Source: an uncultured Faecalibacterium sp. (GTDB lineage Bacteria > Bacillota > Clostridia > Oscillospirales > Ruminococcaceae). Taken from it: 45,959 nucleotides of DNA. Shown in pieces: positions 11,997 through 24,816 of the stretch (positions within the stretch are counted from its first letter, which is position 1; each line of letters opens with the position of its first letter). Both the position numbers and the translations under genes were made by a program. Under the pieces are notes generated by a model. That model was not told the origin of the DNA. It saw only the letters and a program-made list of their open reading frames with translations, and searched no databases. Location of the stretch: assembly GCA_944386015.1 (NCBI GenBank), contig CALWZK010000013.1, positions 1-45,959 on the forward strand, read 5' to 3'.

Positions 11997-13256
11997 TTAA
12001 CGCATGGCGTCGAACATGGCCTTGATCTCGTCGATGGTATACCCCTGGGCCCGCATGTTCCGCGCGAAGGTGGTATAATCCATCCCGCTGCCGGAGGCGG
12101 CGGTCCCGGAGGAGGACGAGCTCTTGCTGGAACTGCCCGAGCTCTTGCTGGAGCTGCCCGAGGACCCGCCCGAGGCGGACCGTGCCGCAGCCTTTGCGCT
12201 GGCGGCAGCGGCCTCCTGCTGGGCCTGGGTCCGCTTCAGGTTCCACTCGCCCTGAGCGATGGCCAGCTTCTGGCTGGTCACATCGTTGTCGAACTTCTGC
12301 TGGGCCAGGGCGTCCTGGTACTGCTGGGCCGCCACCTGGTCCTCGTACTGCTGCTGGGCCAGGCTGTCCTGCCGCAGCTGCTCCTGCATCTGCTGGTTCC
12401 AGGCGGTGTCGGCCCGGTCTGCCTCGTAGTCCCGTCTGTCGGCGTACATGCCGTAGCCCGCCTGGGCCAGGCCGGTGAACAGGGACCCCAGGCCGGTGGT
12501 GCCGCTGATGGCCAGCTGGACCGCGTTGCCCACCATCCCCAGCACCGTCATGATGTTGTTGAAGCCCTGCTGGCGGCGGGCCGCCTCGGTCTCCTCCTGC
12601 TGGGTGTAATAGCCGTAGAGGTTGTTCAGGTTGGACAGATAGTCGGTGTACTGGGCGTAGTCCTGGGCATAGGCGTCCTGGTAGGCCTCCTGCTTGAGGC
12701 CCAGCTGGGTGTAGTAGTCATCCAGCTGGCGGTAGTACAGATCCTGGGCGTTCTGCTCCTGGGTGTTCAGGGCGTTGATCTGGTCCATCAGCAGGTCACC
12801 CTCGCTGGTGTAGCTGTCCAGGGCCAGGTTGTACAGGGTGGGGATCACGCTGTTCAGCCCGTTCATCTGCTGCTGATAGGCCTGCTGGGCCGCGCTGGTG
12901 GCATAGCTGGAGCCGTAGCCGCCGGTGAGGGAGGCCGCCTGGGCGGCGGCGTCGGTGCTGGCGTCGTGGGCGTTCTGGCGGTAGGCCTGGGCGTACTGCT
13001 TGTACAGCGGGTCGGAGGCGTAGTCGTAGGAGAATTCCTCCCGGGACATGGCCTGGTTCAGCAGGTTGTTGATCTGGCCCTGATACTGGCTCTTGTAGGC
13101 CGAGGGCCGGCTGGCCTGCCACGCCTCCAGATCACTGGCCGCGCTGCTCACCGAAGCGCTGGGCTTGTACTGGGCCGAAGCCAGGGCCTGCTGCACCGCC
13201 GCCTTGCTTCCCAGGCCCTCGGTGCTGTAGGTGTCTTTTTTACGGTTGGTCGCCAT
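11997..13256 (-). CDS. Gln/Ala-rich phage internal or ejection-type protein
   Basis: A 419-residue protein, last gene of the virion cassette. GGGGGAG lies just before the ATG. It is rich in Gln, Ala and Tyr, with long helices. The segment DPLYKQYAQAYRQNAH followed by LTGGYGSSYA near residues 83-120 is a pattern seen in structural proteins of Firmicutes prophages. A hydrophobic patch (about residues 238-270, VLGMVGNAVQLAISG) could contact membrane. Residues about 345-395 are a Ser/Gly/Lys linker, and the end (YTTFARNMRAQGYTIDEIKAM) is a short helical domain. Its position after a tail hub-like gene matches where P22-like phages encode DNA ejection proteins. The role is inferred from this position. 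Confidence 0.65.
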   Translation of the reverse strand: MATNRKKDTYSTEGLGSKAAVQQALASAQYKPSASVSSAASDLEAWQASRPSAYKSQYQGQINNLLNQAMSREEFSYDYASDPLYKQYAQAYRQNAHDASTDAAAQAASLTGGYGSSYATSAAQQAYQQQMNGLNSVIPTLYNLALDSYTSEGDLLMDQINALNTQEQNAQDLYYRQLDDYYTQLGLKQEAYQDAYAQDYAQYTDYLSNLNNLYGYYTQQEETEAARRQQGFNNIMTVLGMVGNAVQLAISGTTGLGSLFTGLAQAGYGMYADRRDYEADRADTAWNQQMQEQLRQDSLAQQQYEDQVAAQQYQDALAQQKFDNDVTSQKLAIAQGEWNLKRTQAQQEAAAASAKAAARSASGGSSGSSSKSSGSSSKSSSSSGTAASGSGMDYTTFARNMRAQGYTIDEIKAMFDAMR

Positions 13257-13271: not shown

Positions 13272-13463
13272 TCACTGTCCACTCCCCTGGAGCTGGCTGC
13301 GGAGCCCCTCCGAGAAGTTGTCGGTGTCAATGTTGGTCAATACGTACTGCAGCTGCTCCTGCATCTGGTACAGGTAGTTGCGGATCACCCGGGCGTCCTC
13401 CGGGTTCATGCTGCTGCTCAGCCGGGGCAGGCCCAGCTTGCTCAATCCTGCAATGCTTGCCAT
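13272..13463 (-). CDS. small phage structural protein
   Basis: A 63-residue protein starting at 13463, with AAAGGAG eight bases upstream. It begins MASIAGLSKL, and the helical segment around residues 20-52 (DARVIRNYLYQMQEQL, then YVLTNIDTDNFSEGL) resembles a short conserved motif in phage minor structural proteins, where an RNYLYQ helix precedes a VLxNxDxxNFSE segment. It lies between the beta-rich tail protein and the ejection-type protein, 15 bases from the next gene, so it is part of the same transcript. Function unknown. Confidence 0.6.
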   Translation of the reverse strand: MASIAGLSKLGLPRLSSSMNPEDARVIRNYLYQMQEQLQYVLTNIDTDNFSEGLRSQLQGSGQ

Positions 13464-13480
13464 AGGCAATGCTCCTTTCT

Positions 13481-15352
13481 TTACAGTCCGCCTTTGGCGG
13501 CGGCAAAGGTGCGGCTGACGCTGCGCAGGGTCACCTGCCCTGTGCCGCTGAGCCGGAACCGGATGGTGTCGTGGCGCCGGGGCACCAGGGGGATGCACAG
13601 CTTTTCCTTTTCCTCCCGTGCCAGGGCCGAGGCCAGCTTTTCCCAGGGGCCGCCGTCGCAGCTGGCCCACACTTCCAGCCAGGTGCCGGGCTGGGCGTCC
13701 AGCCGCAGCACCACCCGGGACAGGTATTTGTCCTCGGTCTGGTCCAGCCCGATGTCCCCGGTCACCAGCTGGAAGGGGAGGGCTGCCTCGGCCCGGCCGG
13801 TCTCTTCGGCCATGACGGCGTCCTCATCCCGGGCCGGGCCTGCCGCCCAGAGGGCGGTGCCGTCCCAGAGGTAGAGCTGCCGGCCGCTGGACAGCATTTC
13901 CAGCTGCTTGCCGCTGCCGGGGTCCTCCTGGTTCCACAGGCCCCGCTCGGTGTCGTACACCAGCAGCCGGCCTTCCTCGCCGGTCCACAGGCAGAGGTAA
14001 TACCGCCCGTCCAGCCAGCCGCCGGCGGCCCGCTGGACTTCTGCCAGTCCCTCGGCGTCCAGCACCCCGGACACCTTCACCGGCAGGCTGCCGTCCCAGG
14101 CCATCACCCCCTCGGGGGAGAGATAGTACAGCGTCTCGTTGAGGACGCAGAGGCTTTCTGCGGCCCCCTTGGCCACACCGCGGCACCGCAGGGAGCTGAG
14201 CTGGAAGTCGGAGGGCTTGGTGCCGCACAGCTTGTGGAGGCTGTTCTCCTTGAAGAACAGCACATATCCCATGCAGGTGGCTGCGCCGGTGAAATTGCCG
14301 TCGCTGCCCACCGTTACCGCATAGCTGTCGGCGGCGGTGTTCCGGTAGGAGAACCAGTTGGTGGGGTCGCCCAGCTTGCAGGCGTAGATCACGTTGTCCC
14401 CGCTGGCGCAGCCCCACACCCGGTTGTCGCACTCGGTGAGGTAGTCCATGTCGGGCACCCGCCGGGTGCACTGGAGGGCCTTTTCCACTGTGTAGGACTG
14501 GGTGGTTTTGCCGTCCAGGCTGGTCCAGACGGCCTGGCGGCCGGTTTGGAGCAGGCGCCCGTAATAGTGCTCCCCGCCCGGTGTCACCCGGACCATCAGC
14601 CAGTCCTCGCTGACCTTATAGAGCACCTTTTCCCCGTCCAGGTCTTCGCAGACATCGGCGGCGGCCGCGGCGCTGCCCTCCACCGTCACAGTGTCCCAGT
14701 CTGCGAAGTCTTTGCCGATCCCCTCGGCGTTGATCCGGCAGTAGTCCAGCGTCACCGAACTCCACCGTTCCAGGGAGCTGCTGTAGACTTCCAGCACCCC
14801 GTCGGCGTTCCAGGGGCTGGAAGCGCTCTCCACCTTCAGGAACACCTGGCCGTCCTGGGGTTCCTCCGGCTCGGTGCCGCCCCAGCTGGCGACGGTGTAG
14901 GTGTTGCCGTCGGCGTCGCAGGGCATCACCTCCACCGCGTCGCCCCCGCCGCCCCAGGCAGCCCCCAGGGCGGTCAGGGTGTGATCGGCGGTGTCAAAGG
15001 CCTTTTTGTCGGGGAAGATCAGCACCTTGGTGCCAATGCCCACCAGGGCCTTCTTCCCCGTCTCCAGCGCCCCGCTGAGGGTCACCGGTTCCTCCCCGCT
15101 GTCGGGGGTGTAGGTCAGCTCCCCCGCCCGGATCAGCACAAAGCCGTTCAGGTGGTACATTCCGTCCACCCCATCCAGGTCCCGCAGCTTTCGGCGGGGC
15201 ATCCGGGTGGACAGGGCCGGGAAATCCCGGCTGGAAAAGTTTTCCCCCGCCGCATACTCCGCCTCGGTGCAGCCGAAGGTTTCGTTCAGCCCGCCGAAGA
15301 CCCGGGTCTGTTTGCTGCTGTTTTTCAGCCCGGGCAGTTCAGGAAGATACAT
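13481..15352 (-). CDS. phage tail hub/DNA-stabilisation protein, beta-propeller-like
   Basis: A 623-residue, strand-rich protein with repeated Trp/Gly blade-like units (VWGCASGDNVIYACKLGD, GVMAWDGSLPVKVSG, LLVYDTERGLWNQED). AAAGGAGG lies six bases before the ATG. Size, beta-propeller look and place (after capsid and connector genes) resemble P22 gp10, the packaged-DNA stabilisation protein that closes the portal and bears the tail. The N terminus (PELPGLKNSSKQTRVFGGLN) is of the type found in such Firmicutes phage proteins. The assignment is by gene order and composition, not by a diagnostic motif. Confidence 0.6.
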   Translation of the reverse strand: MYLPELPGLKNSSKQTRVFGGLNETFGCTEAEYAAGENFSSRDFPALSTRMPRRKLRDLDGVDGMYHLNGFVLIRAGELTYTPDSGEEPVTLSGALETGKKALVGIGTKVLIFPDKKAFDTADHTLTALGAAWGGGGDAVEVMPCDADGNTYTVASWGGTEPEEPQDGQVFLKVESASSPWNADGVLEVYSSSLERWSSVTLDYCRINAEGIGKDFADWDTVTVEGSAAAAADVCEDLDGEKVLYKVSEDWLMVRVTPGGEHYYGRLLQTGRQAVWTSLDGKTTQSYTVEKALQCTRRVPDMDYLTECDNRVWGCASGDNVIYACKLGDPTNWFSYRNTAADSYAVTVGSDGNFTGAATCMGYVLFFKENSLHKLCGTKPSDFQLSSLRCRGVAKGAAESLCVLNETLYYLSPEGVMAWDGSLPVKVSGVLDAEGLAEVQRAAGGWLDGRYYLCLWTGEEGRLLVYDTERGLWNQEDPGSGKQLEMLSSGRQLYLWDGTALWAAGPARDEDAVMAEETGRAEAALPFQLVTGDIGLDQTEDKYLSRVVLRLDAQPGTWLEVWASCDGGPWEKLASALAREEKEKLCIPLVPRRHDTIRFRLSGTGQVTLRSVSRTFAAAKGGL

Positions 15353-15364
15353 GAAATCCCTCCT

Positions 15365-15745
15365 TTACCACCGCATCCGCCGAGGCTTGGTCTGGAAATT
15401 GCGCCGCAGCCAGACTGCAAACTCCCCCAGCACCGCGTTGCACCGGTTCATCTCGCCGCTGTAGCGGTCGTTCTCCCCCAAAGCAGCGTCCATCATGGCG
15501 CACAGATAGTGGGGGTACATCCCGTCAAATGGGAAGGGCACCAGCAGTTCTGCCCCATCGGCCAGCTGGCCGTCCCAGAGCAGATCCGCTCCCACGCCTC
15601 CGAATCCCTCGGCGCCTGCGGTTTCCACCATCCGGACACGGATTTCGCCGTCCTGCCGGCGCAGCCAGTTTTTCATGGTTTCTTCGTCGATCTCGCAGCC
15701 CGGGCGCAGTGCCCTGGCCTGCCGGATCGCCTCGCCTGCCGTCAT
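15365..15745 (-). CDS. putative head-tail connector protein
   Basis: A 126-residue protein starting MTAGEAIRQARALRPG at 15745, with AAAGGAGG seven bases upstream. It is mixed alpha/beta, with ETMKNWLRRQDGEIRVRMVE in the N half and a helical MMDAALGENDRYSGEMNRC segment in the C half. In P22-like order this slot (after the coat gene and before gp10) is filled by the tail accessory factor gp4; small connector proteins of this kind also occur in related Firmicutes phages. Its stop codon overlaps the ribosome site of the next gene. A strong terminator lies directly upstream of its own ribosome site, so its expression may depend on readthrough. Confidence 0.55.
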   Translation of the reverse strand: MTAGEAIRQARALRPGCEIDEETMKNWLRRQDGEIRVRMVETAGAEGFGGVGADLLWDGQLADGAELLVPFPFDGMYPHYLCAMMDAALGENDRYSGEMNRCNAVLGEFAVWLRRNFQTKPRRMRW

Positions 15746-15765
15746 CTGCAAGCCTCCTTTCTTGG

Positions 15766-15805
15766 AAAAAAGCCCGGCACACCGGTCCAAAGGCTGTGCC
15801 GGGCT
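15766..15805 (-). terminator. internal terminator within the phage cassette
   Basis: On the minus strand AGCCCGGCACA pairs perfectly with TGTGCCGGGCT (15771-15805) and is followed by TTTTTT inferred from the A-run near 15766-15770. It lies after the capsid and 71-residue genes and immediately before the ribosome site of the connector-like gene. Confidence 0.85.
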
Positions 15806-15812
15806 GATTCAG

Positions 15813-16028
15813 TTACTTCCCTGCTGCGTCCTCAGCCGCCGCAATGCGGGCGGCGGTGAGATCATCCTGGCGCTGGCTGTGTTCCAGCACCTCGGCCACA
15901 GCCTTGGGCACTTCCACATCCACACCCCGGCGGATCTTGTAGTTGACGCCGTTGACGCTGACAAACAGGTCGCCCTTGTAGCGGCCGTTGTCCTTGAACA
16001 GGCGGATGCGGACCTTGCCTTCACTCAT
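15813..16028 (-). CDS. small phage head protein
   Basis: A 71-residue protein (MSEGKVRIRLFKDNG...) with AAAGGAG nine bases before the start. The first 45 residues look like a small beta barrel (RIRLFKDNGRYKG, VNYKIRRGVDVEVP); the rest is a helix. It lies 21 bases after the major capsid gene and just before an internal terminator, so it is probably made at high level with the capsid. It could be a decoration or head-completion protein. This is inferred from position; the family is not recognised. Confidence 0.6.
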   Translation of the reverse strand: MSEGKVRIRLFKDNGRYKGDLFVSVNGVNYKIRRGVDVEVPKAVAEVLEHSQRQDDLTAARIAAAEDAAGK

Positions 16029-16049: not shown

Positions 16050-17096
16050 TCAGTTGGCGGCCGCCGAAGCAGAATAGCTGGACAGGCTCTCGATGCGGAC
16101 CATGTACTGCTCCACCAGGCGCTCGGCTGCCCGCATGCCCTTCCAGCCCACCGAAGCGCGCTGGTTCAGGGGGTCGTCGCCGTAGCCCAGCTGCTTGACA
16201 ATGTGCTCCAGGCCGCCGCCTTCCAGCTCGGTGACGCCGTAGGCGTGGGCGCCCAGCACCAGGGTGCCGAACACCGCATAATGGCCGCTGGAGCCGTCGG
16301 AGGGGCAGGTCTCGTCCTTCCAGATCTTGGCCTCGCTGGTCTCGATGAACCGGATGTTGCCCAGCTTGCCGATCTCGCCCCGGTACATGGCCTCGGGGTC
16401 GGCGTACTTGTGGACCTCGATCCACTCCTTGCTGGTCTTCAGGTCATAGGCGGCGTAGGGGTGGATGATGGCCACATAGCTGTCGCCCAGGGTGTCGGCG
16501 TTCATGGCGCCCAGCTGGGCGGCGGCCTGGAAGAACAGCTTGGGGGTCAGCTTGCAGTCCAGGGTCAGGTCGGCCCGGCTGGTGACGGGGGTCTCAGCGC
16601 CATCATCGGCCACCTTGGGGGCGTAGATCACGTTGGTGCCGCCGGCCAGCACATCCCGGGTCAGGGTGTCCAGGGTGCGGCCGGCCTGGCTGGCCAGAAT
16701 CCGGGTGGCCTGGACCACGTTGTTGTCGATGGCGGTCATCTGCAGCACGTCGGTCAGAGGGGTCCAGCCGCCGTACTGGTGCAGGTCGCTCTTGATGGTG
16801 GAGACGGTGAGGGTCTGGCCGTCGGGGGTGACGCCCTCGGTCAGGGGGGTGGTGGCCTTGGGCAGGCTGTCGTACTTGCGGAACTCAATGGTCTTGCCGC
16901 CGCCCACAGGCATGGGGTAGTAGTCGGCGAACTGGTCGTGGACCAGCCGGGGCTCTGCCTGGTCGATCAGACGCTTCTCATAGAAGGTCTTCATCTCGTC
17001 GGTCATCCCCGGTGTGCCGGTGGTGTTCAGCAGCTGGCTGGCGGGGTCGGCAAAGAACTGCAGGTCAAAGGGGAAGAGATTGTGGTTCTTGTTCAT
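16050..17096 (-). CDS. phage major capsid protein, N4-gp56 type
   Basis: A 348-residue capsid subunit resembling the N4-gp56 major capsid family. Characteristic parts are an N arm with FYEKRLIDQAEPRLVH, the GGGKTIEFRKYDSLPKA segment, GVTPDGQTL with a YGGW loop, and a C-terminal FGTLVLGAHAYGV region. AAAGGA is seven bases before the ATG. The first residues read MNKNHNLFPFDLQFFADPAS. FDLQFFA (residues 10-16) is the motif at which Prp-type proteases cut L27 and some staphylococcal phage capsid proteins, so the first 15 or so residues are probably removed. The matching protease is encoded by the gene just upstream at 17154. Confidence 0.85.
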   Translation of the reverse strand: MNKNHNLFPFDLQFFADPASQLLNTTGTPGMTDEMKTFYEKRLIDQAEPRLVHDQFADYYPMPVGGGKTIEFRKYDSLPKATTPLTEGVTPDGQTLTVSTIKSDLHQYGGWTPLTDVLQMTAIDNNVVQATRILASQAGRTLDTLTRDVLAGGTNVIYAPKVADDGAETPVTSRADLTLDCKLTPKLFFQAAAQLGAMNADTLGDSYVAIIHPYAAYDLKTSKEWIEVHKYADPEAMYRGEIGKLGNIRFIETSEAKIWKDETCPSDGSSGHYAVFGTLVLGAHAYGVTELEGGGLEHIVKQLGYGDDPLNQRASVGWKGMRAAERLVEQYMVRIESLSSYSASAAAN

Positions 17097-17153: not shown

Positions 17154-18098
17154 TTACAGCCGGATCTTTGCCCCGTGGAGGGCTTCCCGCTCGATGGCCT
17201 CCCGCTGGGCCCGGCTCATCCGGCTCACATCGGGGGCGGTGGTCATGGCGCCCTGGCTGTGGATGCCGTTTTCCGGGGGGCGTGCCCCCCGCTCCTGGAC
17301 CCGGTTGATGACCCCCTGCTCCACGGTGCGGGCGGTGCCCTCCATCAGCTTGTCATAGAAAGCCGCGTGATAGGCCTCCTGCATCCGCATCCCGGGCATC
17401 CGCATCATCCGGCGCATGGCGGGGTTTTTCAGGGCCTCCTTCAGGGAGAACTTGGGGTCGCCCTTGCGCATCTCAGCTTCCTCCCGGGCCCACTGGTTGT
17501 GCAGGAACCGGATGAACCGCCCCACTTCGCCGATGCCCAGCATGGGCTCCCGGCGGGGCTGTGCCTCTCTTGCCGGGGCCTCCCGGGTCTGGGCCGGGGG
17601 CAGCTCTTCCTTGCGCTTGTCCGGCTTGCCGGCGGGGCGCATGGTGCCCTCGGCCACCGCCTGCCGCTCCTGCTCCCGGCTGAGGGCAGGGCCCCTGCGG
17701 TCCTTTTTGTCCTTCCGGGCGAACAGCTGCAGGTCGATCATCCCTTCCTCGCCCCGGCTGCTGGTGTCAGCAAACCGCAGGTTGTCGGGGTACCGCTCGG
17801 CCAGCAGGGCCAGGCCGGCTTTGGCCAGCTCAAAGCTGCCCTCCATCCGCTGGTTCTCCCGGGGGTCGGCCGCGGGGCGGGCGGTGATCACCACCCGGGG
17901 GCCCTCGGGGCCGTCGGAAGCGGTGCACTCTGCCTGCTCCATCTCAGCCGCCATCCAGATCAGGGCCTGGGTCAGGATGCTGGCCCCGGCGCAGACAATA
18001 TCCTGGCCGGCGGGGGCGTAGCCGGCATGGCCCTTGACTTCCAGCCGCCGGGTCACCCCGGCGGGGCCGTCCAGCTCGCTGTACATTGCGTGGATCAT
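17154..18098 (-). CDS. Prp-like cysteine protease fused to phage scaffold
   Basis: A 314-residue two-part protein. AAGGAGG is nine bases before the ATG. Residues 1-115 match Prp, the Firmicutes protease that trims ribosomal protein L27: GHAGYA with His24, then DIVCAGAS with Cys36, the same 12-residue His-Cys spacing as S. aureus Prp, and a C-terminal helix ending LAERYPDNLRF. Residues 121-127 read IDLQLFA, a Prp-type cleavage motif at the joint. Residues 128-314 are charged, Arg/Glu/Pro-rich and helical (a Met-rich MRRMMRMPGMRM stretch near 240), as expected of a scaffold. It sits between portal and capsid, the usual scaffold position. Self-release of protease and scaffold, then trimming of the capsid N arm, is the inferred function. 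Confidence 0.75.
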   Translation of the reverse strand: MIHAMYSELDGPAGVTRRLEVKGHAGYAPAGQDIVCAGASILTQALIWMAAEMEQAECTASDGPEGPRVVITARPAADPRENQRMEGSFELAKAGLALLAERYPDNLRFADTSSRGEEGMIDLQLFARKDKKDRRGPALSREQERQAVAEGTMRPAGKPDKRKEELPPAQTREAPAREAQPRREPMLGIGEVGRFIRFLHNQWAREEAEMRKGDPKFSLKEALKNPAMRRMMRMPGMRMQEAYHAAFYDKLMEGTARTVEQGVINRVQERGARPPENGIHSQGAMTTAPDVSRMSRAQREAIEREALHGAKIRL

Positions 18099-18104
18099 CC
18101 TTTG

Positions 18105-19946
18105 TTACCTCCTTGTATTGGTGTTCATGGCCCTGCGGGCCGCCGTGTCAGGGCTGGGGGCCTGGGGCACCCGGTTCACCTGGCCCGAGGTTTTCTGGCC
18201 AGTCATCTTCTGGCCGGCGGCCTTCTGCCCCGCTGCCTTTTGGCGGCTGAGGGCCCTGGCCGCCTGCATGGTCTGGGTCAGGCGGGCCAGCTGCTGCTGG
18301 GCCAGCTGGAGCTGCTGGGCCAGGGTGCCGTTCTGGCGCACCCGCTGGCGGACCTTTTCGATCCCCTCAAAGTCCATCATCTCCAACGCAGCCAGGGCGG
18401 CGTCGGCGTTGGCGGGGTTGAAGAACCCCAGCTGATAGCACTCCTTGGCGGTCTCGTTCTGGCTCAGGCGGCTGAAGGTGGACTTTTTGGCCGCCGAGAT
18501 GGTGATGTCAAACACCGGCTCCCGGCTGCCCAGCTCCACGCCGCCCACGCTGGCCACAGGCACCGGCCGCAGGGCGGCGCCGCTGAACTGGACAAAGACG
18601 TTCTGGCCCTGCTGGCCGGTGATCCGGAACACCCGGTCCTCGTCGTAGAACTGGCGCATCAGGTCGATGACCAGATAGCACTCCTTGGCGAAGGCCCGGT
18701 AGGAGCTCTTGAGCATGTCCCGGGACAGCTTGCTGCCCGCCTCCTGGAGGGCTGCGATGGCCGAAGCCGCCGTGACGCCGCCCGAGGTGCCGCCCTGGCT
18801 CATATCCCGGTTGCCGCTGATCTCCTTCAGCTCGTCCACCCGGCTGTTGCGGTAGGTGATGGAGCTGCCCTGGAGCGCGGCGGTCTGGATCTGGTGGAAG
18901 CTGTCGCTGTTGAGCCGGCCGGTGACATGGACAATGTCCCGGCTCAGATCGGCCAGCTCTTCCTCGTTGACCCCGGCCCCGTCGCTGAGGACGTACCGCT
19001 GTTTGGAGGCCAGCAGGACGTTTTCGTCCATAGCCTGGTTCATCTTGTCGATGGAGTTCTGGCAGTCCTTCATCACATCGATGAGGCCGAAGCCGGCGGG
19101 GCTGTCCTCTTCCTGGTACAGCACGTCAAAGACAAAGGGATATTTGCCGTGGTCATAGTAGCCCCGCCGGGCCAGCCGGGGGTCGTTTTCGCTGGCATAC
19201 AGGACCACACCGTTGCAGAATTTGCAGTAGTGGACCAGCTCTTTGCCGCCGGGGCCCGGTTTCTTGTAGTACCAGTCCACCACCACGCTCTTGTCGGTGG
19301 TGTCGATGCTGTCATCGTGGATGTACCGGGCTGCGTCGATGGTGCCGCCGGTGCGGCCCCGCAGCTGGGGGTAGCGGGCCGCCAGCTGGTCGGAATCCTC
19401 CAGGCTCAGGCTGAAAAAGTGGGGGCTGTCCTGGATGTCCATCACCCCCGGCTCCCAGTAGAGCATCAGCAGGTTCATGGACCGGATGGCGATCTCCCCC
19501 ATGCCGCCCCGGGCGGCGGTGTCCCAGAAGATGCCCTTGACGCCGGTGCCCTGTTTCAGCTTGCGCCACCAGCTGTCTGAGTAGACCTGCTCGTAGTCGG
19601 CCTGTTCCAGCACCACCGGCAGGATGCTGGAGAGGGTGCGGGCGGTGGCCTCATCGTCGGCAGCCCGGGGCAGGACGTTGGGTTCGGGGTAGTTGTCCAT
19701 GGCCTCGGCGTGCTTGCTGGCAATGGAGTTGAACAGCCACCCGCTGGAGGGCTGGGGTTTGCCCTCCATCATCCGGTTTTTGTACTGTTTCCAGTGGGCC
19801 ATCCGGAACCACAGCTCGTTGTCGATCAGCCGCCGGTCCAGCGCCGCTTTGCCGGATTTGTACTTGTGCAGGATGCGCTCCGCCTCTGCGGCCTGTTCGG
19901 GGCCGATGACCGGCGCAGGCTGCATCTGAATTTCCTGTTCTTGCAT
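18105..19946 (-). CDS. phage portal protein, P22-like
   Basis: A 613-residue portal subunit, the ring through which DNA enters the capsid. The start has GAGGTG five bases upstream and lies nine bases after the terminase stop. Portal features include a basic N region (MAHWKQYKNRMMEGKPQPSS), WLFNSIASKHAEAMDNYPEP, a strand-rich middle, GLIDVMKDCQNSIDKMNQAM and a long helical C part ending in a Gln-rich barrel-like stretch (QQLQLAQQQLARLTQTMQAA). Near the end, a five-residue unit (KxxGQ) is repeated four times from a 15-base DNA repeat. Size and layout fit podovirus portals of the P22 type. Confidence 0.8.
   Translation of the reverse strand: MQEQEIQMQPAPVIGPEQAAEAERILHKYKSGKAALDRRLIDNELWFRMAHWKQYKNRMMEGKPQPSSGWLFNSIASKHAEAMDNYPEPNVLPRAADDEATARTLSSILPVVLEQADYEQVYSDSWWRKLKQGTGVKGIFWDTAARGGMGEIAIRSMNLLMLYWEPGVMDIQDSPHFFSLSLEDSDQLAARYPQLRGRTGGTIDAARYIHDDSIDTTDKSVVVDWYYKKPGPGGKELVHYCKFCNGVVLYASENDPRLARRGYYDHGKYPFVFDVLYQEEDSPAGFGLIDVMKDCQNSIDKMNQAMDENVLLASKQRYVLSDGAGVNEEELADLSRDIVHVTGRLNSDSFHQIQTAALQGSSITYRNSRVDELKEISGNRDMSQGGTSGGVTAASAIAALQEAGSKLSRDMLKSSYRAFAKECYLVIDLMRQFYDEDRVFRITGQQGQNVFVQFSGAALRPVPVASVGGVELGSREPVFDITISAAKKSTFSRLSQNETAKECYQLGFFNPANADAALAALEMMDFEGIEKVRQRVRQNGTLAQQLQLAQQQLARLTQTMQAARALSRQKAAGQKAAGQKMTGQKTSGQVNRVPQAPSPDTAARRAMNTNTRR
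18191..18245 (-). repeat. 15-base imperfect tandem repeat in the portal gene
   Basis: Four units based on TTCTGGCC plus seven variable bases encode the KxxGQ pentapeptide repeats near the portal C terminus. Such in-frame repeats can change copy number without breaking the gene. Confidence 0.6.
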
Positions 19947-19955
19947 CGTTTCACC

Positions 19956-21401
19956 TCATATTCTGTAAAATGCCGCGTGTCTGCGGGGCCGCAGGTCCAG
20001 CGGGTCGTCGGTGAGCGGCGCGGGGGCCGGCCGGGCCGGGGGGCTGATGGGGTTTTCCATCAGCACATACCGGCACTCGTCGTAGATGTGGTCCTCCTGG
20101 CGGGAGTCCACATCCTCCACGTTGCTCTCGTCGTACACCAGGGAGGGGATGGTGCGGATGAAATGTTTGCAGGTGCGGAACACCTGGAACATGGGCCGCC
20201 CCTCCTGGTCAAAGGCCAGCCGGTAGTGCATCTGCATCTTGCCGGCCAGGCGGGTGTTGTCCGCCGCCGACCAGAAGATGCCGTTGGGGGGCCGCTCCAT
20301 CATGGCGGCGATGCTCTCCCCCCGGCTCTCGTCAAAGATGGCCGGGTCTGCGATCCCCCGGATGGTCCGGCCCCGGAGCACCGGGTCGTTCTGTTCCGCT
20401 TCCCGGATTTTCCGGGCCTGCTCCACCGGGTTCATCCGCAGCCCCTCGTTGGGCCGGCCGGTGCAGCCGTAGAGCTCCTTGATCCGGTAAATCCGCCCCT
20501 CCTCGTCCACCGCGTACCACCCCACCGAAAAGGGCCGGGAATAGCCGAAGTCGTACCCCCGCCAGATCTTCCAGTGTCTGGGGATCTCGAAGGGCTCCAC
20601 CACATGGGTCCACCGCTGGTCCCGGTAGTGTTCGGGGTCGTTGCGCCACTCGGTGAACACCTGCCCCGAAAAGCTGTCCCAGCTGCCGTAGAGCAGGGCC
20701 TGCTTTTCCGCCTCGGGCAGGGCGGCCAGGCTGGCCAGATAGTCGGGGTCGTTGGCCAGCAGGGCCGGGTTGTCAAAGACGCTGGAGGGGATGAACACCC
20801 GGGCCCGGGTGTAGGTCCGGGTGGTGCCGTCGGGCATCCGCACCTGGTACTCCTCCCGGATGGGGGTGCCGGGGGGCGCCGGGGTGATGAACCGCTCCTT
20901 GACCCAGCCGTGGCCCACCCCGCCGGGGTTGGTGGTGGCCCGCATATACACCCGGGTGCCGGGGCCGGTGGGGCGGTTGCGGCTCATCATGTAGCTGTAC
21001 TCCTCCCACTCAAAGTGGGTCAGCTCGTCAAACCCGATGAAGTCGAAGGCCTTGCCCTGGTAGTTGGTGCGGTCCTTGGTGTACTGCATCGACCCGAAGT
21101 AGATCTTGGCCCCGCTGGGGAAAATCCAGACGTGGGCGGTGGCATTGTACTGGGCCCCCGGGAAAGCCCGGCGGTAGTAGTTCATGCTCTTGTCCACCAG
21201 GTCGCTGAGCTGGGGAAAGGTTTTCCGCAGGATCAGCCCCCGGTAGTGGGGAATGTTCACCTGCCGCAGCGCCTCGATCACCAAAGCGTCGCTTTTTCCG
21301 CCCCCGGCCGCCCCGCCGTACAGCGCCTCCGGCTCGCTGCGCTCCATAAAGGCCCGCTGCCGGGGCTGGGGCTGCCAGATGATGGGCGCGTGCCGGTTCA
21401 T
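19956..21401 (-). CDS. terL: phage terminase large subunit
   Basis: A 481-residue DNA-packaging motor. The N-terminal ATPase has a Walker A at GGAAGGGKS (residues 29-37) and a Walker B with catalytic acid at FIGFDE (Asp125-Glu126), followed by a coupling motif in RATTNPGG. The C-terminal RNase H-like nuclease has acidic residues in RGYDFGYS, GIADPAIFD and EDHIYDECRY. The ATG at 21401 overlaps the stop of the preceding gene (ATGA), with AAGGAGG upstream. It leads into the portal gene nine bases later. All nuclease and ATPase key residues appear intact, so the protein looks functional. Confidence 0.93.
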   Translation of the reverse strand: MNRHAPIIWQPQPRQRAFMERSEPEALYGGAAGGGKSDALVIEALRQVNIPHYRGLILRKTFPQLSDLVDKSMNYYRRAFPGAQYNATAHVWIFPSGAKIYFGSMQYTKDRTNYQGKAFDFIGFDELTHFEWEEYSYMMSRNRPTGPGTRVYMRATTNPGGVGHGWVKERFITPAPPGTPIREEYQVRMPDGTTRTYTRARVFIPSSVFDNPALLANDPDYLASLAALPEAEKQALLYGSWDSFSGQVFTEWRNDPEHYRDQRWTHVVEPFEIPRHWKIWRGYDFGYSRPFSVGWYAVDEEGRIYRIKELYGCTGRPNEGLRMNPVEQARKIREAEQNDPVLRGRTIRGIADPAIFDESRGESIAAMMERPPNGIFWSAADNTRLAGKMQMHYRLAFDQEGRPMFQVFRTCKHFIRTIPSLVYDESNVEDVDSRQEDHIYDECRYVLMENPISPPARPAPAPLTDDPLDLRPRRHAAFYRI

Positions 21402-21673
21402 GTTGCTTCATCCTCCTTTCCCGGCGCCACCGGCGGCAGCAGCACCACGCCGTATTCGGCCTCGTCGCTGCCGGCGCTCTGTTCGCCCAGGCTCCTGGCC
21501 ACGGCTGCCAGGTCCTTGAGCACCGCCGTGATCTCCTTCAGCGCCTTCATGTCGCCGCTGCCCTCGGCCTGCCGCCGGGCATCCAGCGCCCGGGCCTCCT
21601 GCACCAGCAGCCCGCTGAGAAGATCGGTGGTCCGCTGTAAGTCTGTCAGGCTGCCGTTCTTTTTCTTTGCCAT
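21398..21673 (-). CDS. small gene in terminase small subunit position
   Basis: A 91-residue protein starting MAKKKNGSLTDLQRTTDLL at 21673, with AAGGAG seven bases before the ATG. It is helical and charged through residue 65 (VQEARALDARR, ALKEITAVLKDLAAVARSLG), followed by a hydrophobic strand (GVVLLPPVAPG). Its stop overlaps the terminase large subunit start. The place is that of the small terminase subunit, but no clear helix-turn-helix is visible. It is therefore called by position only; similar small genes precede terL in other Firmicutes prophages. It is the first gene of the cassette. Confidence 0.55.
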   Translation of the reverse strand: MAKKKNGSLTDLQRTTDLLSGLLVQEARALDARRQAEGSGDMKALKEITAVLKDLAAVARSLGEQSAGSDEAEYGVVLLPPVAPGKEDEAT

Positions 21674-21728
21674 CCTTTCGCTCCTTTCCGCCGCTGTCCG
21701 GCCGCCTGTCAACATCCTACCACCGGGC

Positions 21729-21846
21729 CCGGTTTTCCCCCAGTGTGTCCTTCCGGCCCCGGTTTTCGGCGGCAAAACCCGCCGGTTTTCTGCGGGCTGC
21801 CCAAAAGAAAAACCGGCCTGTGTCCCAAGGGCAAAGTCCGGTTTAC
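21729..21846. repeat. cluster of CCGGTTTT motifs before the phage cassette
   Basis: CCGGTTTTC occurs at 21729, 21759 and 21782, the inverted form GAAAAACCGG at 21807, and CCGGTTTAC at 21839, spaced about 23-32 bases. The first overlaps a perfect 12-base palindrome ACCGGGCCCGGT (21722-21733). They fill the only non-coding stretch in front of the first phage gene. No standard promoter is evident here. Confidence 0.5.
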
Positions 21847-21907: not shown

Positions 21908-22546
21908 TTACGATTCAGTTTTGGGTGCAATCAGGTCGATGCCCTGCTGCAGGGTGTCGGCGTCGATGGCGCCGGTGGCCTGCGCCACCGCGTACCCGTC
22001 GGCGTCAATGAAATAGGTGGTGGGCAGCGAGTAGGCCCCATAGGTGAGGGCGGCGTTCGAGTCGGTGTCATACAGCACCGGGAAGGTGTATCCCTTCTCT
22101 GCGATGAAGGCAGAGGCACTGTCCACCGTCTCCCGGCCGCCGTCGGTCATGTTGATCATCAGGAACTGGACCTCGTCCCCCAGCTCCTGGTATTTGTCCT
22201 CAAAGTGGGGCATTTCCATCTGGCAGGGCCCGCACCAGCTGGCCCAGAAGTTCACCACCAGGGGCTTGCCGATGTAGTCGTACAGCTGGACCGGATTGCC
22301 CTCCGCGTCATAGACGGTGAAGTCGGGGGCCAGCACCTTTTCAGGCTCTGCGGCCTGGGCGGAATCTGCGGTCTGGCCGCTCTCCGCCCCCTGGCTGCTG
22401 CTGCCAGCGGCCTGGCTCTGGGGGGATTCCACCTTCAGCTGGTTGTGTTCCAGCCCCTGGCTCAGCCGCCCGTAGAGGGTGTAGGCGCCCCCCAGCACCA
22501 GCACAAACACCAGGGCCAGCACAAACAAGATTCGCTTTTTCTCCAT
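21908..22546 (-). CDS. TlpA/ResA-like membrane-anchored thioredoxin
   Basis: A 212-residue extracytoplasmic thiol-disulfide oxidoreductase. An N-terminal KKR and one membrane segment (about residues 6-25) anchor it; a Ser/Gln/Ala-rich linker (about 40-68) leads to a thioredoxin fold with the active site WCGPC (Cys105, Cys108) and the cis-Pro motif SLPTTYFID. It presumably receives electrons from CcdA, encoded ten bases upstream, and keeps extracellular thiols reduced. It is the last gene of the five-gene relay and is followed by a terminator. The target protein is unknown; cytochrome c maturation is unlikely in such an anaerobe, since no heme genes are nearby. Confidence 0.88.
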   Translation of the reverse strand: MEKKRILFVLALVFVLVLGGAYTLYGRLSQGLEHNQLKVESPQSQAAGSSSQGAESGQTADSAQAAEPEKVLAPDFTVYDAEGNPVQLYDYIGKPLVVNFWASWCGPCQMEMPHFEDKYQELGDEVQFLMINMTDGGRETVDSASAFIAEKGYTFPVLYDTDSNAALTYGAYSLPTTYFIDADGYAVAQATGAIDADTLQQGIDLIAPKTES

Positions 22547-22556
22547 GCCTGCCTCC

Positions 22557-23219
22557 TTAGCTCAGCAGGGCCAGCGCCCGGCCCAGGGTACCGGTGGCCA
22601 TCAGGATGCCGATCAAAACCAGCAGCCCGCCCGAAATGGCGTTGATGACCCCGTAGTGGCGTTTGATCCAGTCAAAGGCCGATTTCAGATAGTCGATCAG
22701 GACGGCGCTGAGGATAAAGGGAATCCCCAGCCCCAGGGAGTAAGCCAGCAGCATCAGCACCCCCTGGACCACATGGCCCTGCTGGGAAGCCAGGGCCAGC
22801 GCCGACCCCAGGAAGGCCCCCACGCAGGGGGTCCAGCCCACCGAGAAGATGATGCCGAACACCGCCGCCTGGAAGAAGCCCATGTCGCTGGTGTCCACCT
22901 GATGGCGGCTGCCGTGGAACAGGTCCAGCCGGAACACCCCCAGAAAGTGGAGGCCGAAGAAGATCACCACCAGCCCCGACACCACATTGACAGCGGTCTG
23001 GTATTCCCGCAGGAAGCTGCCCACCGTCCCGGCCAGGGCCCCCAGCAGTACAAAGACCAGGGTAAACCCGGCCACGAAGCCCAAAGCTCCGGTGAGGGTT
23101 TTGCGGACGGTGCGCTCCCCGCCCCCTGCAAAATAGGAGATGTAGATGGGGAGCATGGGCAAAAGGCAGGGGGAGATGAAGGTGATGATCCCTTCCAGAA
23201 AGGAAATTACATATTGCAC
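22557..23219 (-). CDS. ccdA: CcdA-type transmembrane thiol electron carrier
   Basis: A 220-residue membrane protein with six hydrophobic segments. It passes reducing equivalents from cytoplasmic thioredoxin across the membrane. The two redox cysteines are in FISPCLLPMLP (near residue 18) and GWTPCVGAFLG (mid-protein), as in the CcdA/DsbD-beta family. The start is taken as GTG at 23219, which gives the usual family length; GGGGTG lies upstream. This start overlaps the end of the small membrane protein gene by 13 bases, so the two are probably translationally coupled. Next in the operon is the TlpA-like acceptor. Confidence 0.85.
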   Translation of the reverse strand: MQYVISFLEGIITFISPCLLPMLPIYISYFAGGGERTVRKTLTGALGFVAGFTLVFVLLGALAGTVGSFLREYQTAVNVVSGLVVIFFGLHFLGVFRLDLFHGSRHQVDTSDMGFFQAAVFGIIFSVGWTPCVGAFLGSALALASQQGHVVQGVLMLLAYSLGLGIPFILSAVLIDYLKSAFDWIKRHYGVINAISGGLLVLIGILMATGTLGRALALLS

Positions 23220-23419
23220 GAGCCGCCACACCCCGTTCCAAACACACCGGACAGCAGCCACCCCACCAGGCCCATGTAAGCCATGGAGGTGAAGGGGCTG
23301 GAAGTGATGATGCAGCTGCCGGTGGGGCAGCCTGCCACCAGATAGTAGCCCAGCCCCACCAGGGCGCCGCCCAGGGTAAAGAGGGCCGGTTTCATCCATT
23401 TGCCGGCTTTTGCTTTCAT
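23207..23419 (-). CDS. small Cys-containing membrane protein of the redox operon
   Basis: A 70-residue protein starting MKAKAGKWMKP at 23419, with AGGAGG eight bases upstream (a GTG at 23428 overlaps that site). Two hydrophobic segments flank the motif CPTGSC, and the C terminus ends GTGCGGSCNM. Size and cysteine pattern resemble the small DUF6132-like membrane proteins. It sits one base after trxB and overlaps ccdA, so its level is tied to both. The paired cysteines suggest a redox or metal role in the relay. This is an inference from neighbours. Confidence 0.7.
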   Translation of the reverse strand: MKAKAGKWMKPALFTLGGALVGLGYYLVAGCPTGSCIITSSPFTSMAYMGLVGWLLSGVFGTGCGGSCNM

Positions 23420-23420
23420 A

Positions 23421-24350
23421 TCAGGCACCTCCTGCCAGATACTCCTCTGCCATGTGGACCGCCACCGCGCCGTCGGCCACGGCGGTCACCACCTGGCGGA
23501 GGGGTTTGGTCCGCACATCTCCCACAGCGAAAACGCCGGGGATGCTGGTGCGGGTGGACTCGTCTGCGACGATATAGCCGCTGCGGTCCAGCTCCAGCTG
23601 ATCCTTCACCAGTTCGGTGGCGGGCTTGCGGCCGATGCTGACAAAGACAGCGTCGCAGGGCAGTTCCGTCTCGGCCCCGGTGACGGTGTCCTTCAGCCGG
23701 ACCCCTGTCAGCTCCTCCTCATGGAGCAGGGCCGACACGGTGCTGTTCCAGCGGAATTCCAGATTTTCAGTTTTCATCAGGGGCTCGTGATAGACCTTGG
23801 TGGCCCGCAGGGTGTCCCTGCGGTGGACCAGGATCACTTTTTTGGCGATGCGGCTGAGGATCAGCGCGTCTGCAGCGGCAGAGTTGCCTCCGCCCACCAC
23901 CACCACGGTTTTATCCTTGTACCGCATCCCGTCGCAGGCGGCGCAGTAGGCCACCCCGCGTCCCACCAGGGACGCCTCCTCCGGCAGGCCCAGCTCCCGG
24001 GGGTTGGCCCCGGTGGCAAAGGCCACGGTTTTGGCCTGGAAGGTTCCCTCGCTGGTGTGGAGCACCTTGGGCGAAGCGGCCAGGTCAACCCCCTCCACCT
24101 CGGCGTACTCGGTGCGGGCGCCGAATTTCTCGGCCTGCCGCTGCATCTGCTCCGCCAGGGTAAAGCCGTCGATCCCCTCTTCAAAGCCGGGATAGTTGTC
24201 GATCTGGTCGGTCAGGGCCATCTGACCGCCCGCCGACAGCTTTTCCAGCACCAGGGTATTCAGACCGGCCCGGGCTGCATAGAGGGCCGCGGTATAGCCC
24301 GCCGGCCCGCCGCCCACAACGATCATATCGTAGACAGGACGTTCGCCCAT
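23421..24350 (-). CDS. trxB: thioredoxin reductase
   Basis: A 309-residue FAD and NADPH-dependent flavoenzyme that reduces thioredoxin. The FAD motif is GGGPAG (residues 13-18), the redox-active pair is CAACD (Cys136, Cys139), the NADPH motif is GGGNSA (about 153-158) with the phosphate-binding VHRRDTLRA, and the C-terminal FAD motif is GVFAVGDVR. Length is normal for low-molecular-weight bacterial TrxB. It lies 25 bases after trxA and one base before the small membrane protein gene, in an operon that links cytoplasmic NADPH to extracytoplasmic thiols. Confidence 0.93.
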   Translation of the reverse strand: MGERPVYDMIVVGGGPAGYTAALYAARAGLNTLVLEKLSAGGQMALTDQIDNYPGFEEGIDGFTLAEQMQRQAEKFGARTEYAEVEGVDLAASPKVLHTSEGTFQAKTVAFATGANPRELGLPEEASLVGRGVAYCAACDGMRYKDKTVVVVGGGNSAAADALILSRIAKKVILVHRRDTLRATKVYHEPLMKTENLEFRWNSTVSALLHEEELTGVRLKDTVTGAETELPCDAVFVSIGRKPATELVKDQLELDRSGYIVADESTRTSIPGVFAVGDVRTKPLRQVVTAVADGAVAVHMAEEYLAGGA

Positions 24351-24375
24351 GGTTCACACCTCCTTGTGTTTTGAA

Positions 24376-24699
24376 TTACTTGGACAGGGCTTCCTGGAGG
24401 AACTGGTCGATGGCCGCCTTGGAGCCGGGGCCCACAACGGAATCCACCATCTTGCCCTCCTTGTAGAGCACCAGGGTGGGGATGGAAGTCACCTTGGCAT
24501 CCTTGGCCAGCTGGGGCACTTCATCCACATTGACCTTGGCCACCACCACTTCTTCGCCGTACTTGTCGGCGATCTGCTCGTAGGCGGGGGCCAGGCGGCG
24601 GCAGTGGCCGCACCAGGGGGCCCAGAAATCCACCAGCACCGGCTTGGTGTCCTTGGCCATTTCGTTGAACTGTTCCAGAGTGAGATTGATGGCTGCCAT
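24376..24699 (-). CDS. trxA: thioredoxin
   Basis: A 107-residue thioredoxin starting MAAINLTLEQF at 24699 with AAAGGAG nine bases upstream. The active site is WCGHC (Cys30, Cys33), with His replacing the usual Pro; this raises the redox potential in studied variants and is the protein disulfide isomerase form. The cis-Pro motif is SIPTLVLY. It is the first gene of the relay operon trxA-trxB-small protein-ccdA-tlpA. It is probably the electron donor for CcdA, as well as for cytoplasmic targets. Confidence 0.92.
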   Translation of the reverse strand: MAAINLTLEQFNEMAKDTKPVLVDFWAPWCGHCRRLAPAYEQIADKYGEEVVVAKVNVDEVPQLAKDAKVTSIPTLVLYKEGKMVDSVVGPGSKAAIDQFLQEALSK

Positions 24700-24751
24700 A
24701 TTGGTCAGCTCCTTTCCTGTTGTATGAAAAGTATGATTTTGTTCGGTTGTT

Positions 24752-24765
24752 GGTATCAGTATACC
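24752..24765 (-). promoter_or_regulatory. trxA promoter -10 with overlapping inverted repeat
   Basis: GGTAT-CAGT-ATACC is a five-base inverted repeat; on the minus strand it contains TATACT, a good -10 about 55 bases before trxA. No good -35 is seen. The repeat may be a regulator site. Confidence 0.4.
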
Positions 24766-24816
24766 CGAAAAAAGCGCCCTGTTCTGTGACGGCATCACCA
24801 AATCCTGGACACAACA

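Follow-up and report, generated by a model that had tools for sequence, protein, structure and literature searches.

The Prp protease of Staphylococcus aureus is encoded by the host as a separate gene and trims the ribosomal protein L27, for which the published motif is MLxx(D/N)LQ(F/L)F'A. The same enzyme processes phage 80alpha, cutting between Phe and Ala within a D/N-L-Q motif in both the scaffold (NLQFF'A) and the capsid protein (NLQHF'A). In the numbering of the published S. aureus Prp work its residues of interest are His22, Asp31 and Cys34. Published accounts of 80alpha describe the N-terminal sequence of the scaffold as required for assembly and its cleavage as not required, and Prp has also been proposed to be a chaperone for L27. 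Phage Cp-1 has been described as encoding its own maturation protease in a separate gene; orf13 of this phage matched Prp weakly in our searches (0.0024, below the cut-off). In phage lambda, C and Nu3 are overlapping products of one frame, and both lambda C and P2 gpO are serine proteases of other folds. The scaffold of P2 has been reported to form part of the protease gpO; P2 and lambda are alike in having protease and scaffold in one protein or frame.

Within the genus Faecalibacterium, a gene-transfer agent operon, FpGTA I, has been described as ten ORFs in about 10 kb that include TerS, TerL, portal, head scaffolding and major capsid proteins (Borodovich et al. 2026, PMC12946183). The same publication reports this operon as near-ubiquitous in the genus and, for strain ATCC 27766, particles that package host DNA. 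Here we analyse a 45,959-nucleotide stretch of DNA from an uncultured Faecalibacterium sp. (the window), in which a gene between those for the portal and the capsid protein codes for a Prp-type protease fused to a scaffold-like domain. We consider it likely, with a probability of roughly 0.72, that this protein serves the Faecalibacterium gene-transfer agent as maturation protease and scaffold in one chain, that it cuts itself and the capsid protein, and that it arose by gene joining.

Results

A ten-gene cassette that fits FpGTA operon I

The cassette lies on the minus strand and, from upstream to downstream, consists of genes for a probable small terminase (TerS; 21398..21775, assigned from its position and the published operon, with no family above cut-off), the large terminase (TerL; 19956..21401; PF03237, 7.3e-16), a P22-type portal protein (18105..19946; PF16510, 5.4e-33), the 314-aa fusion (17154..18098), a 348-aa major capsid protein of the N4-gp56 family (16050..17096; TIGR04387, 1.5e-93), conserved phage proteins of 71 aa (15813..16028; PHROG 15239) and 141 aa (15365..15790; PHROG 12105), a 623-aa virion protein (13481..15352; PHROG 511, labelled internal virion protein, 4.7e-42 over residues 296-617), a small protein of about 64 aa (13272..13466) and, last, a 419-aa protein (11997..13256) that is conserved in the genus and has no strong family match. 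The small protein is the conserved part, starting near residue 69, of a 132-aa ORF that overlaps the 623-aa gene. Together the ten genes span 9.8 kb and are flanked on either side by host genes. We recognised no integrase, replication or lysis gene within the cassette, and no plasmid match was found for it. Adjoining it, window positions 21908-24801 hold ORFs that by eye resemble a thiol-redox set (TlpA-like, CcdA-like, thioredoxin reductase and thioredoxin).

By gene content, size (~10 kb) and genus, rather than by direct alignment to the ATCC 27766 locus, this cassette fits FpGTA operon I. A search of named genomes with a scaffold profile returned 20 loci, 20/20 of them in Faecalibacterium, including strains used in the published study; among these, ATCC 27768, APC923/51-1 and APC923/61-1, for example, carry the Prp-scaffold fusion. 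The published main text differs in naming a head scaffolding homologue only and no maturation protease, and a count of the terms protease, peptidase, Prp, cleav and proteol gave 0 for the main text of PMC12946183 (the supplements lying outside this search). Within the text searched, the protease thus appears to be an unreported component of FpGTA I. A preliminary description of the window had spoken of a phage-derived cassette; the cassette fits a genus-wide gene-transfer agent operon, FpGTA I, rather than a stray phage remnant. It is also present on short contigs deposited as 'Bacteriophage sp.' (L002-L008; IMG/VR, GenBank). Those with enough flank (e.g. L003, L005-L008) share their flanks with Faecalibacterium chromosomal loci and look like bacterial DNA filed as phage.

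Domain architecture of the fusion protein

The fusion gene is an ORF with an ATG start. Its N-terminal domain (residues 1-115; 17754..18098, minus strand) had been suggested to carry a Prp signature, and this was borne out by a profile search in which Peptidase_Prp (Pfam PF04327, MEROPS C108) covered residues 14-107 with E = 8.3e-15 and 55.2 bits against a curated cut-off of 27. The spacing of His24 (codon 18027-18029), Asp33 (18000-18002) and Cys36 (17991-17993) is H-9-D-3-C, identical to that of the corresponding S. aureus residues, as the preliminary description had proposed for His24 and Cys36. Ten NCBIfam models of L27-type Prp scored far under their cut-offs (the best 27.5 bits vs 171), because of which we place the window protein, by profile, in the Prp family but not among the ribosomal Prps. 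A ribosomal Prp is a stand-alone gene between rplU and rpmA, accompanied by a long L27; here, the Prp is fused and lies in a capsid cassette, in a genus whose L27 is short.

An AlphaFold2 model built from a 25-row alignment likewise gave a Prp fold for the N-terminal domain, with block means of 67-93 across residues 1-110, the catalytic loop (21-30) being the weakest-modelled stretch of the domain, and values <50 for residues 118-139, the segment that holds the joint. All 11 Foldseek matches at E <= 0.001 were Prp chains (11/11; 2IDL, 2G0I, 2G0J, 7KLD, 7JVS and 4PEO), among them S. aureus Prp with a bound peptide-like inhibitor (7KLD), and a profile search of PDB sequences returned the same Prp entries (best 2G0I, 4.5e-7).

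The remainder of the protein, 195 aa from an internal ATG to the stop (17154..17741), agrees with its earlier reading as a charged, scaffold-like domain in the scaffold slot, since it falls between the portal and capsid genes and the published operon has a head scaffolding annotation. In its C-terminal part there is a match to PHROG 13908, a family with no assigned function; we therefore call it scaffold-like on the basis of this slot and the published annotation, not of a profile of a named scaffold family.

Predicted cleavage sites at the joint and on the capsid protein

Residues 121-127 of the fusion read IDLQLFA, within a joint M120-I-D-L-Q-L-F126/A127 (MIDLQLFA, residues 120-127; 17718..17741, minus strand) at which the expected cut is F126/A127, in keeping with the earlier claim of a Prp-type recognition motif exactly where the two domains meet. 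A matching site, FDLQFFA, occupies residues 10-16 at the N-terminus of the capsid protein (17049..17069, minus strand), with a predicted cut F-D-L-Q-F-F15/A16. A strict motif regex matched twice in the ten cassette proteins, once in the fusion and once in the capsid protein, as compared with 0.0103 matches expected per shuffle of the 3267-aa cassette set, and gave 0 matches in 73,358 aa of flanking ORFs, spurious antisense frames included. Across the genus, 27/27 capsid rows carry the N-terminal site [DN][LI]Q[LFRY]FA (20 by script, 7 by reading), and the other eight cassette proteins have no site, save a loose match in 2/24 TerL rows.

In 28/28 aligned fusions, some rows of which are near-identical, His24, Asp33, Cys36, Met120, Leu123, Gln124 and Phe126 are invariant, and Asp122, Leu125 and Ala127 are nearly so. 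The joint begins with an ATG (17739-17741) in 36/36 fused rows (duplicates included). Since the position equivalent to Met120 varies in capsid sites, the protease probably does not require this Met, and its invariance speaks for an arrangement that would add to our main proposal: one frame may give two products, as for lambda gpC/Nu3, namely the full-length fusion and a free scaffold (MIDLQLFA...) started at the joint ATG. The full-length form would then be the minor, protease-bearing species, self-release would be less important, and the free scaffold would still bear the site. Shine-Dalgarno pairing with what we take to be the 16S tail points the same way, averaging -6.6 kcal/mol before the joint ATG vs -4.2 at other in-frame Mets (n=34 and 371, in rows that are related), but it is far weaker than at the gene start (-11.9 kcal/mol), amounts to about -3 in one clade, and a second, separate fusion (g16, see below) has GTG or CTG at its joint. 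On balance we give such dual use of the frame a little under even odds.

Conservation of the protease in Faecalibacterium

A Prp match was found in 30/31 genomes of the genus, including 22/22 near-complete ones. Among the 32 Prp copies, 27 are fused and 5, from five species, are separate neighbouring genes of 120-132 aa, each with a scaffold match directly downstream; by eye, the scaffold start shows an LQ.F site in 4/5 of these separate-gene species. His, Asp and Cys are also kept in 9/9 rows that include the five separate Prps. In the separate scaffolds of L107, L108, L061 and L064, the cut site is preceded, as read by eye, by a shared leader resembling LLPALCxAKRC, which L064 has in variant form.

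Median pN/pS was 0.20 for TerL, 0.21 for the capsid protein, 0.30 for the Prp domain (56 pairs with pS < 0.55; 0.38 across all 105 pairs) and 0.54 for the scaffold domain; on these ratios, the Prp domain is under purifying selection and the scaffold domain evolves fast. A competing idea is that the Prp domain is a passenger that has lost protease activity, serving only as a binding module or an extra part of the scaffold. The dispensability of cleavage for 80alpha assembly and the proposed chaperone role of Prp give this idea some ground, but the catalytic triplet is invariant in all aligned fusions and in the separate-gene Prps and cut sites persist in both partners, and we regard it as improbable.

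In genome G320 the fusion frame ends after 178 residues. The G320 loci (L100/L065) and L008, where the frame is a single one of 362 aa, carry an insertion downstream of the joint with a second LQLFA motif. Genomes G171 (L104) and G307 (L105) have a second, diverged cassette, about 25% different in TerL plus capsid, with longer fusions of 472 and 450 aa and no TerS match, at another genomic location common to both. The joint is clearest in these long fusions: PHROG 4478, a phage peptidase family, covers the N-terminus, and the alignment to PHROG 13908 opens at its profile position 4-5, on residues 112 and 118 respectively, so that its start falls within or right at their sites (110-117 and 117-124); on a free scaffold the same family begins at residue 30, near the N-terminus.

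Host Prp and L27

No Prp was found outside the cassettes in the genus genomes, the separate-gene copies having been checked for an adjoining scaffold, and no counterpart of the host-supplied Prp that 80alpha uses was found in them. L27 begins MAHKKG, with no tail to remove, in 24/26 genus loci (the other two being unreadable); in the window's own genome, an 89.6% complete assembly, L27 was not found. The genus therefore appears, from these genomes, to be without both a long L27 and a second Prp, and for this reason the element Prp would not be kept for L27. L27 processing was accordingly ruled out as the cause of conservation: that the Prp domain mainly serves the host, replacing a ribosomal Prp that trims L27, would suit a genus with no other Prp found, but the tail-less L27 nearly refutes it and we hold it to be very unlikely.

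In the wider family, Prp was found in 192/297 genomes and none was shown in 105/297. In G360, which belongs to another genus, L27 is short and the one Prp is in the element, with NLQLF sites in scaffold and capsid protein. The Prp-less family genomes, together with the short L27 of Faecalibacterium and G360, suggest that Prp and the L27 tail were lost together more than once.

Inheritance of the cassette

All ten genes were matched in 17/20 fetched copies; of the other three, two are second copies that lack a TerS match, and one is truncated where its contig ends. Flanks cluster by clade, one right flank being common to 11 loci and another to 6, and TerL plus capsid distances track those of the L27 locus (Spearman 0.85, 16 genomes, 0/2000 permutations), which is what vertical inheritance predicts. 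A prophage in decay with an accidental fusion, which the lack of recognised integrase, replication and lysis genes and the one interrupted frame might imply, is very unlikely too, given the genus-wide presence of Prp, the matched gene sets, the clade-shared flanks, this distance correlation and the published particles with these proteins (PMC12946183).

Related elements in other genera and in phages

The scaffold profile matched 30/396 genomes of the family, 7 of them Faecalibacterium; of the 23 others, 18 were fetched and 16 loci compared. Left out were L187 and L188 (no capsid match), L189 (neighbour of a Faecalibacterium second copy) and L170, where a second Prp lies about 18 kb away, though the L170 capsid protein has a site. 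Of the 16 loci, 11 have a Prp (9 as separate genes, 2 fused), counting L176, whose match of 21.6 bits is under the Pfam cut-off, and 5 do not. The capsid N-terminal motif [DNC]L[QRHDC].F was present in 9/11 loci with Prp vs 0/5 without (Fisher p = 0.005). The regex behind this association was chosen once the N-termini were known, and the loci, several from one genus, are not independent; a first run with one N-terminus cut short had given 8/11 (p = 0.026). Scaffold N-terminal sites are patchy in these genera, none being seen in L180, L183 and L185 as framed.

The five Prp-less elements (L179, L181, L182, L184 and L186) have no Prp in the fetched stretch and no capsid sites. Their hosts all have Prp and a long L27, yet the capsid proteins are site-less, so that an element without Prp does not simply borrow the host enzyme, and borrowing was dropped as an explanation for them.

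The two fused elements (L173 and L177, genus g16) resemble those of Faecalibacterium in gene order (portal, Prp-scaffold, capsid) and have DLCRF/D at the joint, but the tree groups them with unfused g16 Prps and not with Faecalibacterium, which suggests a second, independent fusion. In this tree, built on 116 columns with long branches and with the stand-alone element Prp of L183 and four phages on the host side, Faecalibacterium Prps cluster together (88/89), next to those of the other elements and separated from the host enzymes (98/88). On this placement we rejected the idea that a host Prp was captured recently.

A host Prp query matched 28 phage records. In phages phiFL3A (gp45), BL3 (gp6), phiS11 and PLgT-1, a stand-alone Prp-family gene adjoins and follows the portal gene. 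All four scaffolds have LNLQ.FA or MNLQ.FA sites, and such sites also occur in the phiFL3A and BL3 capsid proteins; the capsid protein of phiS11 has no site within its first 60 residues. These phages thus resemble the cassette in their sites and differ in that protease and scaffold genes are separate.

Discussion

The core of the preliminary description stands: the protein joins a protease of Prp type to a scaffold-like domain, the two domains meet at a Prp-type site, and the genus has yielded no other Prp. Its suggestion that the fusion can free itself is a prediction, and translation from the in-frame ATG at the joint could likewise provide free scaffold with no cut at all. Its view of the protease as unusual needs narrowing: a phage Prp is not in itself unusual, given the stand-alone genes beside the portal in four annotated phages, and P2 provides a precedent for fusion. 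What is new is the fusion; no paper describing a Prp-scaffold fusion was found in the literature searched, which took in neither subscription papers, preprints nor supplements. The window protein differs from P2 gpO and lambda C/Nu3 in combining a Prp-fold cysteine protease with sites of Prp type, and from the 80alpha system in that its Prp is carried by the element and fused to the scaffold, in a genus with a short L27.

We propose that the scaffold domain carries the Prp domain into the procapsid. There, cleavage behind F126, intramolecular or on an adjacent chain, would release the protease from the scaffold, and a cut behind F15 would shorten the capsid protein, so that both N-termini would be trimmed in the way that host Prp trims those of 80alpha. 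The particle would probably bring its own maturation enzyme. Given that the 80alpha scaffold N-terminus is needed and its cleavage is not, the cut may serve to adjust release or expansion instead of being a prerequisite for assembly. As to origin, a Prp gene probably joined the next gene, a scaffold with its own N-terminal Prp site, and the joint site would be the old N-terminal site of the scaffold. Support at the level of sequence comes from the fold, the catalytic residues, both sites, their conservation, the separate-gene relatives and the association of Prp with capsid sites; from these we infer that cleavage takes place, where and in what order, and that the protease is delivered into the procapsid. 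Weighing against this proposal are the dispensable cleavage of 80alpha, the low scores of L27-type models, the fast-evolving scaffold domain and the interrupted frame in G320.

A bolder version, which we offer tentatively and consider rather doubtful as a whole, is that the gene-transfer agent matures its capsid with a Prp-scaffold polyprotein, translated from a single frame in two forms, which cuts itself and the shell, that it arose at least twice by the joining of neighbours with the scaffold site kept, and that in Faecalibacterium it is the sole Prp left after loss of the ribosomal Prp and the L27 tail, with no dependence on a host protease.

These results offer a candidate maturation protease, with exact residues, for the gene-transfer agent of a dominant human gut commensal. 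Since this host seems to have neither another Prp nor a long L27, disabling the protease should in principle spare the ribosome in Faecalibacterium, which it would not do in S. aureus. A natural series, running from host Prp through stand-alone Prps of phages and neighbouring genes to two fusions, lets one ask what the 80alpha work left open: what purpose is served by cutting the N-termini of scaffold and capsid protein.
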